A DNA stretch of 35,210 bases, from IMG/VR virus record IMGVR_UViG_3300022200_000171, positions 1 to 35,210 of that record, one strand, 5' to 3'. The DNA comes from a virus. The stretch's first letter is position 1, and each line of letters begins with the position of its first letter. The notes beneath the pieces are model-generated. The model saw nothing but the letters and a program-made list of their open reading frames with translations. It was not told the DNA's origin and made no database searches. Positions 3,595 through 35,149 of the stretch are shown here, in pieces. The position numbers and the translations under genes are program-made.

Positions 3595-5126
3595 TGTCAA
3601 ACCCTGTTGAACAGATCAGAGATGCAGCAGAAGCAGACCTTGTAACCTTTATCAAGCTTGTTGCACCTGAACAAGTGCTAGGACAATGCCATGAGGACGT
3701 ATGTAATTGGTGGACTCGCCAAGGTGCAAAATCTCATCAACTACTACTTTATCCCCGAGACCACGGCAAGTCTCGTCTTATTGCCTATAGAGTTGCTTGG
3801 GAACTAACCAAAGACCCTACTCTTCGTGTGTTGTATATTTCTGCTACAGCAAATCTCGCAGAGAAACAGCTAGGCTTTATTAAAGGTATCCTGACTTCTC
3901 GGGTGTACCAAAGGTACTGGCCAGAGCATGTCAATGCCGAGGAGGGAAAACGGGCCAGGTGGACAACATCAGAGATTATGTTGGATCACCCTAAACGAAA
4001 AGAAGAGAATGTTCGAGACCCTTCTATCTTTACTGGCGGGTTGACGACTTCACTGACTGGCCTTCACTGTGATATTGCAGTTCTGGACGATGTTGTCGTT
4101 TACGAGAACGCATACACAGGTGAGGGCCGACAGAAGGTGAGTAGCCAATACTCCCTTCTGTCCTCTATCGAAGGGGCAGAAGCAAAGGAGTGGGTGGTTG
4201 GTACAAGGTACCACCCGTTAGACCTTTACAACAGTCTTCTTCAAATGTCCGAAGACATCTATGATGATGATGGAGAGAAGGTCAGTGAAGACAATATCTA
4301 CGAGGTTTTTGAACGACCGGTAGAAAGCTATGGGGATGGCACCGGAGAATTTCTCTGGCCTCGACAGCAAAGAAAAGACGGAAAGTGGTTTGGCTTTGAT
4401 ATGAAGATTCTGGCCAAGAAAAGGGGTCAGTACCTTGACAAGGGCCAGTTCCGAGCACAGTACTACAACGATCCTTCTGATCCAGACAATGTACCGGTCG
4501 GCTCTGACAAGTTTCAGTACTATGAACGTAAACACCTGAAGCAGGATGAAGGCTACTGGTACTACCAAGACAGTCGTTTGAATGTCTTTGCTGCCGTTGA
4601 CTTCGCATTTAGCCTGTCAAAGAAGGCAGACTATACAGCTATCGTCGTAATAGGTATTGACAATTCTGGGAATATCTATATACTTGACATCGACAGATTT
4701 AGAACTGACCGTATTTCTGATTACTTTGAACACATACTTCACCTAGTAAACAAGTGGAGCTTCCGTAAAATCAGAGCAGAAGTTACCGTAGCACAGAAAG
4801 CTATTGTCCGTCAGTTGAAAGAACTTATCAAGGAGCATGGACTAGCTCTCAGTGTTGATGAGTTCAGACCTAATAACGGGACTAAAGAAGAACGTATTGC
4901 AGCTATTCTTGAACCCAGATACGACAACCTTTCTATCTGGCATTACCGAGGTGGTAATATCCAGACACTGGAAGAAGAACTTTCCAGCCGTAATTCACCT
5001 CACGATGACGTAAAGGATGCCCTTGCTGCCGTAGTAGACATGGCGGTAAAACCAGCTAAGACATATAACAGGGCAAGAAGAACAAACATAGTCTGGGCTA
5101 ATAATAGATTCAGAGGTACTGGGTAA
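3594..5126 (+). CDS. terL: Terminase large subunit (DNA packaging ATPase/nuclease)
   Basis: The 510-aa protein is the motor that pumps phage DNA through the portal and cuts concatemers. The N-terminal ATPase carries a Walker A-like PRDHGKSR at residues 54-61 and a Walker B IAVLDDVV with D165/D166, followed by a coupling region near VVGTRYHPLD (201-210). The C-terminal RNase H-like nuclease shows VFAAVDFAFS (D336), an acidic residue at about E396 and the last catalytic aspartate in SPHDDVKDAL (about D471-D475). Length and motif order match the T7 gp19 / SIO1-type group. It is coupled by one-base overlaps to the gene before it and to the portal gene after it, a normal packaging module. No adjacent small terminase is recognisable. 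Confidence 0.95.
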   Translation: MSNPVEQIRDAAEADLVTFIKLVAPEQVLGQCHEDVCNWWTRQGAKSHQLLLYPRDHGKSRLIAYRVAWELTKDPTLRVLYISATANLAEKQLGFIKGILTSRVYQRYWPEHVNAEEGKRARWTTSEIMLDHPKRKEENVRDPSIFTGGLTTSLTGLHCDIAVLDDVVVYENAYTGEGRQKVSSQYSLLSSIEGAEAKEWVVGTRYHPLDLYNSLLQMSEDIYDDDGEKVSEDNIYEVFERPVESYGDGTGEFLWPRQQRKDGKWFGFDMKILAKKRGQYLDKGQFRAQYYNDPSDPDNVPVGSDKFQYYERKHLKQDEGYWYYQDSRLNVFAAVDFAFSLSKKADYTAIVVIGIDNSGNIYILDIDRFRTDRISDYFEHILHLVNKWSFRKIRAEVTVAQKAIVRQLKELIKEHGLALSVDEFRPNNGTKEERIAAILEPRYDNLSIWHYRGGNIQTLEEELSSRNSPHDDVKDALAAVVDMAVKPAKTYNRARRTNIVWANNRFRGTG

Positions 5127-6865
5127 TGAAAGAAATCAATATTGCAACTATTCTCAACCCGGATACTCTGGCGGTAGAGATAGGCAATCGGTGGTTCCAG
5201 TGGAATACTTATCGCCTGAAGTGGATGGAGCAAAAGAAAGAACTCCGTAACTACCTGTATGCTACGGACACTCGGACCACTTCTAATGCCATGCTTCCCT
5301 GGTCTAACTCTACGACCACCCCAAAGCTGACTCAGATCATGGATAACCTCCATGCTAATTACTTTGCTACCCTGTTCCCCCGTCAACAGTGGATGAAGTT
5401 TGAGGCTCACTCGGAAGACCCGTTGATTAAAGATAAACGGCAGACTATCCAAGCATACATGGACACCAAACTCCGTCAGTCCAGTTTCATTAATACTGCT
5501 TCTGACCTTCTGTACGATTGGATTCAATATGGAAACTGCTTTGCTACGGTTTCTTGGGAACAAAAGTACTTGACAAAAGAAGATGGTGAGGTTACTATTG
5601 ATTATGTTGGTCCGAAGCTTGTTCGTATCTCTCCTTTCGACATTGTATTTAACCCAACTGCTGCTAACTTCAAATCAACACCAAAGATTGTCCGTAGTCT
5701 TAAAACCCTCGGTGAACTCAAAAGACTGATTGATGAGAACCCAACAAATAATTTCTACAAGAAGGTTCTTGAACGTAGTCTTTCTGCCCGTACCACAGTT
5801 TTGAATAGTGGGGATGAACGGTACAAAGACGATGGGTTTGTAGCAGATGGCTTCAGCAACATCCGTCACTACTACGAATCAGACTATGTAGAAATCCTGA
5901 CGTTCTACGGTGATGTCTACGACAAGGAAGCCGGTAAGCTTCATACCAATCGGATCATTACCATTGTAGACAGGGCATACGTTCTGGACAATGCTCAGAA
6001 TCCTAGCTGGCTTGCAGGCTCACCTGTGTACCATGCAGGGTGGAGGGACCGACCGGATAACCTTTACTCTATGGGACCACTGGATAATCTCGTAGGTATG
6101 CAGTACCGGATCGACCACCTTGAAAACCTCAAGGCAGATGTCTTCGATCAGATTGCATATCCCGTACTCAAGATTAAGGGGGACGTAGAGGACTTTGAGT
6201 TTGAGCCAGGTGCTCGTATCTACATGGGTGAAGAGGGTGATGTAGGATACCTTGCACCCGACCCTACGGCCCTTCAGGCAGACCTCCAAATCCAGATACT
6301 TGAGAACAAGATGGAGGAGATGGCTGGTGCCCCGAAGCAAGCCATGGGCTTCCGTACTCCGGGTGAAAAGACTGCCTTCGAAGTACAGATGCTACAGAAC
6401 TCTGCATCCCGCATCTTCGAACACAAGACGGCACACTTTGAGCGCAGCTTCCTTGAGCCGGTCCTTAACAACATGCTTGAGATTGCTCGTCGGAATATGA
6501 ATATGTCGGACTTGGTACGGTCCATTGATGAAGACTACGGTGTAGAACTCTTCAAGACGATTACCAAAGATGACATCACTGCTTCGGGTAAGATTGTTCC
6601 TATTGGTGCTCGTCACTTTGCGGAACGAGCCAGACGGGTACAGAGCTTGCAGCAACTGTATCAGATCAAACTAGCTGATCCTTCTGTTGCTGCCCATATG
6701 TCGGGTAAAGAATTTGCGAGGATACTTTCTGAAGAGCTTGGGGAGCCGACATTGTTTGGTGAAAACATCATGGTGGCGGAACAACTGGAAACTCAACAAG
6801 CGGTGCAGGAAGCTGAAATGATGAACCAGCAACAGCTTATGGCTAAACAGGAGATGGGAATATAA
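5126..6865 (+). CDS. Portal (head-tail connector) protein
   Basis: The 579-aa product follows the large terminase with a TAATG overlap. It shows the features of podoviral portal proteins: a long helical stem and wing region, a central YRIDHLENLKADVFDQ segment, an FRTPGEKTAFEVQMLQNSAS region around residues 415-440 and a Gln/Met-rich C-terminal tail (QQAVQEAEMMNQQQLMAKQ). In this family twelve copies form the ring through which DNA is packaged and ejected, and which docks the terminase and the adaptor. The gene order terminase, portal, scaffold, capsid supports the call. Two small ORFs of unknown role separate it from the scaffold. Confidence 0.9.
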   Translation: MKEINIATILNPDTLAVEIGNRWFQWNTYRLKWMEQKKELRNYLYATDTRTTSNAMLPWSNSTTTPKLTQIMDNLHANYFATLFPRQQWMKFEAHSEDPLIKDKRQTIQAYMDTKLRQSSFINTASDLLYDWIQYGNCFATVSWEQKYLTKEDGEVTIDYVGPKLVRISPFDIVFNPTAANFKSTPKIVRSLKTLGELKRLIDENPTNNFYKKVLERSLSARTTVLNSGDERYKDDGFVADGFSNIRHYYESDYVEILTFYGDVYDKEAGKLHTNRIITIVDRAYVLDNAQNPSWLAGSPVYHAGWRDRPDNLYSMGPLDNLVGMQYRIDHLENLKADVFDQIAYPVLKIKGDVEDFEFEPGARIYMGEEGDVGYLAPDPTALQADLQIQILENKMEEMAGAPKQAMGFRTPGEKTAFEVQMLQNSASRIFEHKTAHFERSFLEPVLNNMLEIARRNMNMSDLVRSIDEDYGVELFKTITKDDITASGKIVPIGARHFAERARRVQSLQQLYQIKLADPSVAAHMSGKEFARILSEELGEPTLFGENIMVAEQLETQQAVQEAEMMNQQQLMAKQEMGI

Positions 6866-30982: not shown

Positions 30983-32011
30983 TCAGTGTGTTTCATTCCA
31001 GTTGGTACCGATGTCGGTGGAGCCAGCTAGAGGACACATTATACGCAGTTTGATTCCAGTGTCAACAATTGATTGACGTTGTATTGCACCTAGTTTTTTT
31101 GCTGTTTCTTTATCTCCTTCTACTTCTGTTTGCCATTCATCATGGGGCCAAGTCACCAGCTTGAACTTGATTCCCTTTGCCTTAGCTGTCCAGTCAAGGG
31201 CAGCATGTTTCATTACAGTTGCTTCACCATTCTGTAACATACCAGCCAGTGTCTTGTGTTCTGAGGGTACTGGTACCCGACGACCATCAAGACCAGTGAA
31301 CCAGCCAGCCTTGGCTACTGACGGGATAACCCTTTTTTTCAGGTCAGCAAGGCCAGGGATAGACTGCATGAAGTTCTCTACTGCCTGTGCTGCTTCTGTT
31401 GAATTGACCTTGAGTATCTCACCTACCTTGGCATTACCAGCACCAAGAAGGAAGGCATAGATAAAAGTCTTAGCCATGTCTCGGGTAACATGGGACATAC
31501 CCAGTGCTCGACGGTTGACGTTGTGGATGTCGGTTTCGTCTTCCTTCTTGCCGGATACGATAGCATGTACATATTCCTCAGACTTCATCAGATGGGCAAG
31601 GATACGAAGTTGAATACCCTCGGCGTCAGTACCGACTAGCCAGTGGCCATCAGGTACACACCACAGTGCTCTCATCCTGCCATCATAGTTAGCCTTGACA
31701 GCCTCTACAGCAGTCTTGGATTCACCATGGAAAGAAGCAGGGATGTTGGCTTGGTTGGGGCTGCTGTGTGCCATACGTCCAGTCCATGCACCTATATGTG
31801 TGAACCTTCCGTGAATACGGTGGTCGTCACCGCAGTGTCCTAACCATTCGACAAGAGAAGAACGTCTACCTTCCAGTGTCATCCACTCAGCTATGTTGTG
31901 AGCACCAGCAGGGGCTGTGTCAGGAACTGTGGAAAGGTTAACCTCATTACATTTCCAGCCGTACCTTTGGTAGTGCATACCCTTTTTAGTACCGTTGCTT
32001 TTCTCGTTCAT
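30983..32011 (-). CDS. Family A DNA polymerase, polymerase-domain ORF (split gene, C-terminal part)
   Basis: The 342-aa ORF carries all three polymerase motifs: motif A GTDAEGIQLR (D129), motif B RDMAKTFIYAFLLGAG (R177, K181, Y185) and motif C WPHDEWQ (H290, D291, E292), plus TGRMAHSSPNQANIP. Y185 matches T7 Y526 (E. coli 762 position); L189 stands where T7 has Y530 (E. coli Y766). The upstream ORF supplies the exonuclease and thumb start; the two overlap by 26 bases in different frames. ATG 32011 has AAAGGA about 10 bases upstream, so separate translation is feasible. Summed length (about 630 aa) is near T7 gp5 (704 aa). It may be a true two-subunit enzyme or one gene broken by a one-base insertion. 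Confidence 0.9.
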   Translation of the reverse strand: MNEKSNGTKKGMHYQRYGWKCNEVNLSTVPDTAPAGAHNIAEWMTLEGRRSSLVEWLGHCGDDHRIHGRFTHIGAWTGRMAHSSPNQANIPASFHGESKTAVEAVKANYDGRMRALWCVPDGHWLVGTDAEGIQLRILAHLMKSEEYVHAIVSGKKEDETDIHNVNRRALGMSHVTRDMAKTFIYAFLLGAGNAKVGEILKVNSTEAAQAVENFMQSIPGLADLKKRVIPSVAKAGWFTGLDGRRVPVPSEHKTLAGMLQNGEATVMKHAALDWTAKAKGIKFKLVTWPHDEWQTEVEGDKETAKKLGAIQRQSIVDTGIKLRIMCPLAGSTDIGTNWNETH

Positions 32012-32858
32012 AGTCCAAGTATCCTTTGGTCTTGTCTGTTGGTTGCCAGCCTGCCTCCCACAACCTGTCTATACGTTGCTGTGGTGAGCCGGGATTGAAG
32101 GGTACATAGTCAAAGCACAGAAGCATACCGTCCTTCACAGTGTGGATCATATACTTCTCTTTGGCCTTGGTGACAGAGGCAAATTCTTTGCCGTCCTTGG
32201 TAGTCCGGTAGGTAACAGAGTGAACAGGCTCCAGCTTTGGAGGGAAGTCCTTCTGGAATCCAGTCTCCAGTATATTCTTCCGTTCAGTAATCTCGGCAAG
32301 GATAGTCTCTGCCTCTGTCTTGTTGAAGTAGAAGCCGTTGTCTGTCATCTCTTCACACAGCCATTGAATGTCATGTTCTACCTGTAAGGCGGTGGCCTGT
32401 GTCTTGTCGTTGATGAACGGTAATAGCTTGGTGTACAGCCTATGTGTCACCCTTACATCCTGCTTACAATAGTCGATCATCTCTTGGGACAAGGTGTCAA
32501 ACTTCTTGAAGTAGGTCTTAGGGAACCCGAGTCTTTGGCCCCAAGCTGCAAGGCTATGGCCGTCTTCAATGCCGTAGTCCTTGAGCCTGGATACAACCAA
32601 AGTGTCTGTTATTCTATCGTTTCTAACAGACCATCCACAAAGCTTTCGTAAGACTGGTACATCGAAACCGATTCCGTTATGAAGAACATAACGATGACTG
32701 TCAGTACAAGTTTTATTGAAGCGTTCCTTTTCTTCTGGGATAGAGGTTGGGTTAAGGTAAGTCTGTTCCTCTCCTGTCTCTATATCCAGTGTACATATAC
32801 ACCAGATGTTAGATGGGGTGAGGGATTCAGTTTCGATGTCAAGTATGATGGTACTCAT
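31986..32858 (-). CDS. Family A DNA polymerase, 3'-5' exonuclease ORF (split gene, N-terminal part)
   Basis: The 290-aa ORF holds the proofreading domain: Exo I LDIETES (D7, E9), Exo II NGIGFD (N61, D66) and Exo III YCKQD (Y130, D134). Residues 150-290 correspond to the start of the polymerase domain (LQVEHDIQWLCEEMTDNGFY, NPGSPQQRIDRLWEAGWQPT) and end KGYLDYEREKQRY. In an unsplit T7-like polymerase the chain would run on at this point; here the continuation is in the +1 frame (EKSNGTKKGMHYQRYGWK). The start ATG overlaps the primase stop (ATGA). With the downstream ORF it would form the replicative polymerase. Confidence 0.9.
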   Translation of the reverse strand: MSTIILDIETESLTPSNIWCICTLDIETGEEQTYLNPTSIPEEKERFNKTCTDSHRYVLHNGIGFDVPVLRKLCGWSVRNDRITDTLVVSRLKDYGIEDGHSLAAWGQRLGFPKTYFKKFDTLSQEMIDYCKQDVRVTHRLYTKLLPFINDKTQATALQVEHDIQWLCEEMTDNGFYFNKTEAETILAEITERKNILETGFQKDFPPKLEPVHSVTYRTTKDGKEFASVTKAKEKYMIHTVKDGMLLCFDYVPFNPGSPQQRIDRLWEAGWQPTDKTKGYLDYEREKQRY

Positions 32859-34486
32859 AGTTCCTCTGGGTCATCAAGTGATGTAGGTTCCAAGGTGAAC
32901 TTATCAAAGTCAAAGTACAGGGAACCTGCATAGCCAGAGCCACCACCAGTTCTGTTCTTCCTGCCTACATAAACGAAGGTAGTGTTAGCCAGTGTCTCAT
33001 CAGAAGCATCAGGGTTACGTTTAAGAACGATCTCGAATGCAGCACCTTGGATGATGGATGCACAGTACTTGGCTTCACCTTCCTTGTTTGAGTGTGCAAT
33101 CACTACTATACCTACGTTCAGTTCTACAGCCAATCGTTTAAGCTGCGTCGTAAGTTCAGTCAAGAGACTTTCTTTCTCACTGGTGCTACGAGCCGACACA
33201 AAATCTTGGATAGGTTCAAGGAAGATGTAGTCTACACTCATAGCTACGGCAAGGAACCGTACTTGGTCTACAATGTCTTCGACAGAAGAACCAACTCGGA
33301 TAAGAAACTGGTACACATTTTCTTTGGACACCAGCTTCTTGACAAACTCGGTATACTTCTCTTGGTACTGTAGCTCTTCCACCTTGTCCTTGCGGGTGAG
33401 GTTCTTGCCCTCATGGTAGGAGAACAGACCAAGGATACCTCGGAGTTGTGACTCCTCACCATGACAGAAGGCAATCGAATAGTCTGTGTGGGTAATGGCC
33501 TGATGCTCAAGGAAACGGAAGAACTCTGTCTTACCAATGCCAGTCTCAGCAAGGACAACAGTGAAGGCTCCTTTGTGGATGCCCATGATCTTGTCGTCAA
33601 GGCCTGGAACATTGGTCTTGAAGTACTCATAGTTGGGTGAGTCGTTGAACAGAGATATGAAGTCTGCTTCTGTACACAGGATGTTATCCGGCTTCACCAG
33701 TTGAGCAGACCACCAGCTATTCCTGTATTCTGCTTCAGCACCAGCAGTCAGGAACTCATTGGCGTCCTTGTACTTGGTGTGTGGTACTTTGTACACTCTG
33801 CTTGGAAAGATACCCGCCAGCTTCTCAGCAATGTGGTCTGACTTACCGTCACTGTCAAACGAACAGTATATCTTTTCAAAGGATGAGAGGTAGTCTCTGC
33901 ACTTCTCAATAAGCTTCTTGCTAGGTGTAGCAGACGGCAAAGAAACAACAGGGTACTTGCTGCCTAGCATCTGGAAGGCAGACATAGCATCAAGCTCACC
34001 CTCGCAGATAGTGATAGCCTTGGCTGAACCAGAGTTGAACTTGTCCATACCAAACAGTTCGTCAGAACCAAAGCCAAGGGAAGTAGTGAAAGACTTGGGT
34101 AGCACCCTAGTCTTGGTGCCATGAGGGTACGGATATTCCTGTTTCACTTCTTCGTTGTTGATGAGGTTGACATAAGTCTTGACCCCGTACTTCTCCATCG
34201 TTTCTTTCTTGATACCCCTGTGCTCTCTGTGGATAGGGGTAAGCATAGGCTGAACAACAGCCCTGGGTTTTTCCATTGTCATATTCCTGTCTGGGGTTGT
34301 GATGTAGCTGTCATACTCCTGCTTCAGAGAGGAGTCAACAGAAGATTGTCTTGAGTGGAATGGGTAGTCTTTTCCACAGGAGTAGCAGTGGCCCTTGTCT
34401 TGAGAATGATACCAAGAGAAGGCATCACTACTACCACAGTCAATAAACGGACAAGGTAACTTGTCTGTTCTTTCTTTAGTATTCAT
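32855..34486 (-). CDS. Primase-helicase, T7 gp4-like
   Basis: The 543-aa protein combines RNA primer synthesis and 5'-3' DNA unwinding. A zinc finger (C12, C17, C34, C37) reads the primer template; the TOPRIM core has ICEGELDA (E162) and SFDSDGKSD (D211, D213). The RecA-like helicase has Walker A AETGIGKT (313-320), Walker B YIFLEPIQ with E424 where T7 has D424, a VVIAHSNKEG motif (H465) and GRKNRTGG (R509, R512). Length is close to T7 gp4 (566 aa). It is the first gene behind a consensus promoter and is coupled by ATGA overlap to the polymerase exonuclease ORF, forming the replisome operon. Confidence 0.93.
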   Translation of the reverse strand: MNTKERTDKLPCPFIDCGSSDAFSWYHSQDKGHCYSCGKDYPFHSRQSSVDSSLKQEYDSYITTPDRNMTMEKPRAVVQPMLTPIHREHRGIKKETMEKYGVKTYVNLINNEEVKQEYPYPHGTKTRVLPKSFTTSLGFGSDELFGMDKFNSGSAKAITICEGELDAMSAFQMLGSKYPVVSLPSATPSKKLIEKCRDYLSSFEKIYCSFDSDGKSDHIAEKLAGIFPSRVYKVPHTKYKDANEFLTAGAEAEYRNSWWSAQLVKPDNILCTEADFISLFNDSPNYEYFKTNVPGLDDKIMGIHKGAFTVVLAETGIGKTEFFRFLEHQAITHTDYSIAFCHGEESQLRGILGLFSYHEGKNLTRKDKVEELQYQEKYTEFVKKLVSKENVYQFLIRVGSSVEDIVDQVRFLAVAMSVDYIFLEPIQDFVSARSTSEKESLLTELTTQLKRLAVELNVGIVVIAHSNKEGEAKYCASIIQGAAFEIVLKRNPDASDETLANTTFVYVGRKNRTGGGSGYAGSLYFDFDKFTLEPTSLDDPEEL

Positions 34487-34751: not shown

Positions 34752-34967
34752 TTACCCCCGTTGACAGGTATGTTTGACATCGCCCCTGACATGGCCCCCG
34801 ACATAGCCCTTGACATCGCCCCAGACATCGCCCCAGACATCGCCCAAGACACTGCCCTCGACATCACCCCAGACATTGCCCTTGAAATCCTTGACAGACA
34901 TACCGTTCTCAGTAAAGACGATGACCTCTTCAAGGTACTTGATCTGTTCCTCAGTAAATTTAGTCAT
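34752..34967 (-). CDS. G-x-V-x tetrad-repeat protein
   Basis: ATG 34967 is chosen: AAGGAG lies about 8 bases upstream and the ATG overlaps the previous stop (ATGA). The 71-aa product has a short acidic helix (residues 1-22, TEEQIKYLEEVIVF), a GMSVKDF hinge and then nine consecutive four-residue units from residue 30: GNVW GDVE GSVL GDVW GDVW, then GDVK GYVG GHVR GDVK. A regular G-[DNSYH]-V-x period suggests a narrow beta-solenoid or stacked-turn structure. A second gene at the window edge ends with the same repeat. Similar repeats occur in other phage early proteins, but no function is known to me. Confidence 0.65.
   Translation of the reverse strand: MTKFTEEQIKYLEEVIVFTENGMSVKDFKGNVWGDVEGSVLGDVWGDVWGDVKGYVGGHVRGDVKHTCQRG
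34773..34880 (-). repeat. 12-bp tandem repeat encoding G-x-V-x
   Basis: Nine in-frame 12-base units with consensus GGCGATGTCTGG on the minus strand encode the tetrads; several units are identical. Because 12 is a multiple of three and the unit lacks stops on either strand, the opposite strand is open too. A further run of the same unit is at 35164-35210. Confidence 0.88.
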
Positions 34968-35149
34968 TTGCTTTCTCCTTGATCTTGTTGCACTGCCTGC
35001 CAAGCATGTACAAGTTTGCTCATCCCATTCCCATCTACCTGAACCCTACACCTACCATCGTTTATGTAGGTTGTACCATCTTCGTAGATGTCTACCTTTA
35101 TTTTCTCGGCAACGAAAGACATTGCCATATTGTTGAATGATGGTGACAT
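34964..35149 (-). CDS. Small early protein of unknown function between two tetrad-repeat genes
   Basis: The 61-aa product (ATG 35149, AAGGA upstream) contains AEKIKVDIYEDGTTYINDGR and CRVQVDGNGMSKLVHAWQAV, a strand-strand-helix layout, and ends QQDQGESK. It is coupled by ATGA overlap to the tetrad-repeat gene. No recognised family. Confidence 0.6.
   Translation of the reverse strand: MSPSFNNMAMSFVAEKIKVDIYEDGTTYINDGRCRVQVDGNGMSKLVHAWQAVQQDQGESK

Follow-up and report, generated by a model that had tools for sequence, protein, structure and literature searches.

In Aeromonas phage 25, the two polypeptides gp43A and gp43B co-purify and have polymerase activity, and the seam of this split polymerase holds a homing endonuclease (PMC2988022). 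The split NrdA of Aeromonas phage Aeh1 is functional, with an endonuclease gene (mobE) between its two halves, and the split itself is ascribed to this endonuclease; in the T4-type polymerases that are split, the role of the endonuclease as maker or as invader has been left open (PMC2988022). Within the Zobellviridae, the MEP401-type phages of OM43 encode a family A polymerase in two ORFs with a small ORF between them, for which the authors suspect an intron (PMC10580990). The closest isolates to the locus described here are Lentibacter phage vB_LenP_ICBM2 (ICBM2) and Roseobacter phage CRP-5. The ICBM2 record already labels two parts as 'exonuclease domain' and 'polymerase domain', while the cobavirus papers on these phages do not discuss the split, and none of the papers searched contains 'cobavirus' together with 'homing endonuclease'.

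The stretch of viral DNA analysed here, referred to as the window (35,210 nucleotides), carries on its minus strand the gene order primase/helicase, exo, pol (Table 1). Judged on its replication genes, namely this primase, exo, pol order together with relatives such as ICBM2 and CRP-5, the window belongs to the Cobavirinae (Zobellviridae). The exo ORF matches Pfam DNA_pol_A_exo1 (PF01612) and contains all of the exonuclease residues (D7, E9, H60-N61, D66, Y130 and D134) in the motif strings D7/E9, HN..FD and Y..QD, while the pol ORF matches DNA_pol_A (PF00476, E 6e-33) and contains all residues of polymerase motifs A (D129), B (R177, K181 and Y185) and C (H290 and D291). This distribution of motifs had been claimed in the initial annotation together with the 26-base overlap of the two ORFs; the residues are located as it described, and the coordinates of the overlap are exact. 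The pol motif residues D129, R177/K181/Y185 and H290-D291 are invariant in 30 sequences, and the exo catalytic residues are invariant across the aligned split members with the exception of L174, which has an irregular exo motif I. Both active sites of the split polymerase are intact in sequence. The locus has the motifs, the exonuclease and the fold of a T7-type family A DNA polymerase, divided between two genes rather than held in a single polypeptide. Very probably it represents a split ('genes-in-pieces') polymerase of a cobavirus, encoded by two overlapping genes with their own starts and assembled from two chains in a non-covalent manner.

Table 1. Coordinates of the split polymerase locus in the window.
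Feature	Position	Strand	Support
exo: 3'-5' exonuclease domain and first half of the polymerase thumb, 290 aa	31986..32858	-	DNA_pol_A_exo1, AF2 model, catalytic residues
pol: remaining thumb, palm and fingers with motifs A, B and C, 342 aa	30983..32011	-	DNA_pol_A, T7 gp5 alignment
Seam: 26-base exo/pol overlap, pol frame +1 to exo frame	31986..32011	-	same geometry in all overlap relatives
AAAGGA: predicted Shine-Dalgarno of pol, also Lys-Gly codons of exo KTKG	32022..32027	-	codon conservation, spacing
pol start ATG, within exo codons TAT GAA	32009..32011	-	ATG kept 45/45
exo stop codon TAA	31986..31988	-	equivalent stop in occupied L234 directly precedes the endonuclease insertion
A4 run	31999..32002	-	length backed by independent assemblies L010-L013
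primase/helicase	32855..34486	-	stop overlaps exo ATG by 4 bases

Two further features of the window are recorded here as observations. Residues 129-136 of pol read DAEGIQLR, placing a Gln in motif A where T7 gp5 has a Glu (DASGLELR); this Gln is common to SIO1 and the whole group, and the position is the steric gate of family A enzymes. In addition, a small ORF near the window end (34752-35003, minus strand) carries a short repeat of the GDVWGDVWGDVKG type.

The junction is shared by many relatives. Four contigs from other metagenomes (L010-L013) encode exo and pol proteins ~99% identical to those of the window with the same 26-base overlap, and the split recurs at the window's seam, in the same +1 relation, in two isolates, CRP-5 (overlap of 35 bases) and ICBM2 (50 bases). 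Searches with both split and fused relatives as queries gave ~360 loci, which, once duplicate contigs are removed, comprise 197 fused loci, 101 loci with overlapping genes, 51 in which the halves are separated by other genes (endonuclease ORFs in 45 of these) and 5 with the genes kilobases apart. In phage T5S1, a member of a sister lineage, exo and pol are separated by the primase/helicase and small genes, and in four further relatives the two genes likewise lie kilobases from each other. The 'inserts' of the T5S1 group (L175, L176, L181, L182, L188 and L189) are small genes or the primase/helicase, not endonucleases. In L188, L189 and L006 of this group the primase/helicase lies between exo and pol, a change of gene order that the split would have made possible. 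The comparison with SIO1 and cobavirus relatives suggested in the initial annotation gives a divided answer, with CRP-5 and ICBM2 split in the same way and SIO1, CRP-4, CRP-9 and CRP-13 fused.

If a normal single gene had been broken by one wrong base in sequencing or assembly, or by a mutation that recently inactivated it, the two frames should together read as one uninterrupted family A polymerase, as they can, and fused relatives should exist, as they do; the initial annotation had pointed to a single inserted base in the A4 run. The same junction, however, recurs in the four independent 99% relatives, in CRP-5, in ICBM2 and in ~100 contigs, which refutes the inserted base, and the pol start is under selection, leaving this explanation with a negligible probability. 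The smooth join of the two frames after removal of one A, brought forward in support of an error, is uninformative because fused relatives have a linker at the corresponding stretch that differs in both length and sequence. The comparison of loci shows that the split is real and common to more than 100 related phages. The alternative named in the same annotation, a genuine two-subunit polymerase, gains support from the shared junction, the selection on the pol start and ribosome site, and the separated genes of T5S1.

To assess conservation around the pol start, loci that share a state and have pol proteins 95% or more identical are grouped and each group is represented once, which gives 45 representatives. 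All of them keep the pol ATG. The Tyr codon overlapping it is TAT in 43/43, against only 30% TAT among the Tyr codons of the exo body, and the two representatives with His at this position use CAT, so that the ATG is kept. Similarly, the Gly codon of KTKG, which forms the Shine-Dalgarno core, is GGA or GGG in all 45, compared with 28% in the exo body and with 10/16 fused relatives (Fisher p 1.4e-4 for the difference from split loci). Of the 155 loci with the motif, 150 place this codon 10 bases from the ATG; in the window AAAGGA ends 10 bases 5' of the pol ATG, which makes exact the approximate spacing given initially. Codon conservation beyond usage corresponds to p ~1e-23 for the start codon and 1e-25 for the ribosome site, values that are indicative since the rows share ancestry and the p-values overstate their independence. 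Collectively, these patterns show selection on the start codon of pol and on its ribosome site, and the locus consists of two ORFs, each with its own start, as expected of genes in pieces. Because some fused relatives already encode KTKG with AAAGGA, the ribosome site would pre-date the split, which may then have needed just an ATG and a frame change.

The +1 relation holds in 109/109 overlap loci, a uniformity far in excess of chance, as would be expected if programmed +1 frameshifting fused both frames into one polymerase, yet it is explained by the position of the ATG within TATGA. Overlap length ranges from 8 to 56 bases among relatives, the exo stop is TAA, TGA or TAG, and the exo tails and flanking codons differ, so that there is no shared slip site, in agreement with the initial remark that a good one was lacking. 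Moreover, a whole endonuclease gene separates the frames in 45 relatives, in any phase, the genes of T5S1 and of four relatives are far apart, and a conserved start with a ribosome site would be needless to a frameshifting ribosome. Frameshifting is therefore highly improbable, and the conserved start and Shine-Dalgarno, together with the gene separation in T5S1, point to separate translation of pol.

The position of the cut is defined by alignment and by structural models. In the sequence alignment, the upstream ORF spans T7 gp5 up to and including thumb beyond the thioredoxin-binding region, and the pol ORF corresponds to the remainder. For the exo chain, the AF2 model (pLDDT 90.5, 29 sequences, last 20 residues low) aligns with T7 gp5 residues 1 to 361-373 with Z 17-20; with regard to thioredoxin as a processivity factor, the segment between the thumb helices of this model is short. 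The model of the fused relative L194 (pLDDT 90.7) matches full T7 gp5 with Z 37.7 and rmsd 2.7 over 549 residues; the match to the T7 gp5 fold is established by model for the exo chain and the fused relative and by sequence for the pol chain. In the L194 model the seam (residues ~279-303) is formed by two short helices and a loop located between thumb helices, and this linker varies strongly in length and sequence among the fused, more distant relatives. On either side of the seam in split loci, the exo C-terminal thumb segment is conserved (FNP.SP..RI..LWEAGW.P..KTKGH), and the pol N-terminus has 1 to ~18 residues before a conserved RG.KF.RYGW. Since exo reaches T7 residues 361-373 and the linker of fused relatives is hypervariable, the T7-type family A polymerase is cut within its thumb (T7 ~361-373), in a tolerant linker. 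It does not fall at the exonuclease/polymerase domain boundary, where the initial annotation had placed it; the upstream ORF extends into the thumb and holds its first half.

Either chain might in principle be active on its own, and free exonuclease subunits of phage polymerases are annotated elsewhere (phrog_403, phrog_38876), as would suit products that stay apart, with the pol chain working by itself and exo serving as a free nuclease. The pol chain alone, however, would miss part of the DNA grip because the exo chain holds the first half of the thumb, and the C-terminal thumb segment of exo remains conserved, which makes such independence improbable. By analogy with gp43A/B and NrdA, the two chains most likely reassemble. 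Specifically, exo and pol would be translated from one presumed mRNA, each from its own start, with ribosomes starting pol at the ATG inside the exo end, aided by a Shine-Dalgarno that doubles as two exo codons. The chains would then assemble without a covalent link into one putatively proofreading polymerase. The break sits in the hypervariable thumb linker that is free to vary in length in fused relatives.

On a tree of exo and pol, the distribution of fused and split forms needs 4 changes, at least 3 of them forced by well supported branches, and the empty or occupied state of the seam needs at least 12. The data are compatible with the main split group having arisen once (AU p 0.286), and the number of splits or re-fusions is uncertain because some fused lineages (L192/L194/L201 and L183) are unplaced. 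The T5S1 group either is another split lineage cut at this seam or descends, together with the main group, from an older split that was followed by re-fusions.

Within the main split group, 45 relatives have an ORF placed exactly between exo and pol. Five endonuclease types occur at this seam, namely Endo VII-like, three HNH and GIY-YIG, and they are distributed as Endo VII-like (23), HNH with HVDHMWP (12), a second HNH (4), both of these HNH types in tandem (2), GIY-YIG/T5orf172 (3) and HNH_3 with an AP2-like tail (1). Nuclease domains are detected above Pfam cut-offs (PF02945, PF01844, PF10544/PF13455 and PF13392); HNH-I is weak in Pfam and matches PHROGs phrog_1035 with E 3e-25, and it is intact in L366. 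In nearly all cases the endonuclease begins with the same ATG from which pol is read in empty alleles, and the exo and pol ORFs stay whole in the occupied relatives. The seam of the window is without an endonuclease and is thus an empty allele. A group I or II intron in the occupied alleles is rejected, since no Rfam match at gathering score is found in ten occupied loci, nor any to E = 1 in seven more, and the gap is filled by the endonuclease ORF.

The empty allele L217 and the occupied allele L234 form a pair with identities of 99% and 95% to either side of the insertion, which starts directly after the exo stop and has a 14-bp repeat (GATCGTGGAGATAA) at both ends. The L234 endonuclease carries the first 13 pol residues (MTVNKDINKDRGD), and pol restarts at a new ATG (MIDRGDKF). 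This reuse of the first 13 pol codons and the duplication of 14 bp show that the endonuclease entered an already split locus. Furthermore, the endonucleases of L234 and L344 are 96-98% identical, compared with ~70-75% between their hosts otherwise and mostly 68-82% (one 53%) in individual segments of the host exo/pol flanks, while exo/pol of L344 is ~90-100% identical to its own empty relative L332 and that of L234 ~88-100% identical to empty L217. Such a pattern is a signature of homing with co-conversion, from which we infer that endonucleases home into the seam.

Several details of the seam endonucleases are recorded separately. L239 contains a frame-broken copy (4754-5148) of the HNH endonuclease that is intact in L234, seemingly an occupied allele in decay. 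In L042 (4993-5998), tandem seam ORFs encode HNH-I followed by an HNH protein with a recombinase-type helix-turn-helix, and the ORFs overlap each other and pol. The HNH-I of L015 (5145-6038) has a long array of ~13-residue repeats (KAYRQENKEKIAE) between its zinc-binding and HNH parts, the copy number of which varies among HNH-I endonucleases. Most Endo VII-like and some HNH-I seam endonucleases start with a leader such as MKDSQLELF or MKDNQLDLF, seen in the first 10 residues of L050, L058, L075, L078, L042, L351 and others. Its QLELF/QLDLF part resembles the bacterial sliding-clamp binding motif QL[SD]LF; a leader shared through recombination could also account for it.

The frequency of endonucleases at the seam and the Aeh1 nrdA precedent (PMC2988022) would be in line with a homing endonuclease having made the split by entering a fused gene, the window becoming empty later. 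HNH-I is present in both of the nearest diverged neighbours of the window, L015 and L028, and the window may accordingly have lost an endonuclease; its pol N-terminus, GMHYQRYGW, is a possible endonuclease remnant and also resembles L195 and T5S1. Against this origin, the locus was split before the L234 endonuclease arrived, none of the fused relatives surveyed has a seam insert, the deepest split rows of the main group (L195 and L037) are empty, and a simple mutation is enough, as the AAAGGA site is already present in fused relatives. An endonuclease origin is thus doubtful; it concerns how the split arose and is compatible with the preferred account of two reassembling chains. A tentative reading of the occupied loci is that the seam of an already split polymerase offers a standing safe harbour, where unrelated endonucleases may replace each other, take the pol start and ribosome site and give pol a new start, the clamp-like leader possibly tying the mobile gene to replication.

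The polymerase of the window is a conserved two-gene family A enzyme of the genes-in-pieces kind, whose chains, by analogy, would assemble. New here is the recurrent endonuclease occupancy of the same seam in relatives of a marine phage with a split polymerase. Order and direction of events are readable because fused, split-empty, split-occupied and gene-separated forms exist together with pairs a few percent apart. A natural two-chain T7-type polymerase cut in the thumb may suggest where such enzymes tolerate a break, and annotation pipelines and marine polA marker-gene surveys should expect two ORFs.

Among known systems, ICBM2 and CRP-5 (Veravirus, Cobavirinae, Zobellviridae) share the seam, the +1 overlap and the start/Shine-Dalgarno layout of the window, with 68-72% aa identity in pol, but differ in overlap lengths and tails and in a single small gene that separates primase from exo. 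The fused polymerases of CRP-4, CRP-9, CRP-13, SIO1 and T7 (gp5) share fold and motifs with the window, and fused cobavirus-type records also have a primase gene upstream of the polymerase gene; these enzymes are single polypeptides with a hypervariable linker at the seam. The MEP401 polymerase is cut further downstream, inside the catalytic half (387 aa + 236 aa), whereas the window is cut in the thumb, and the intron suspected there contrasts with the window-type seam, where Rfam searches of occupied relatives found none. Compared with Aeh1 NrdA, at least one insertion among the window's relatives entered an existing split. An endonuclease is present at the split in Aeh1 and phage 25 and absent in 44RR and the window, while 45 relatives of the window are occupied. 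Phage 25 gp43A/B resembles the window in dividing a replicative polymerase between two polypeptides; it is a family B enzyme of a T4-type phage, whereas the window encodes a family A, T7-type enzyme with directly overlapping genes, and five endonuclease types at one seam are a feature of the window's relatives, unlike gp43A/B.
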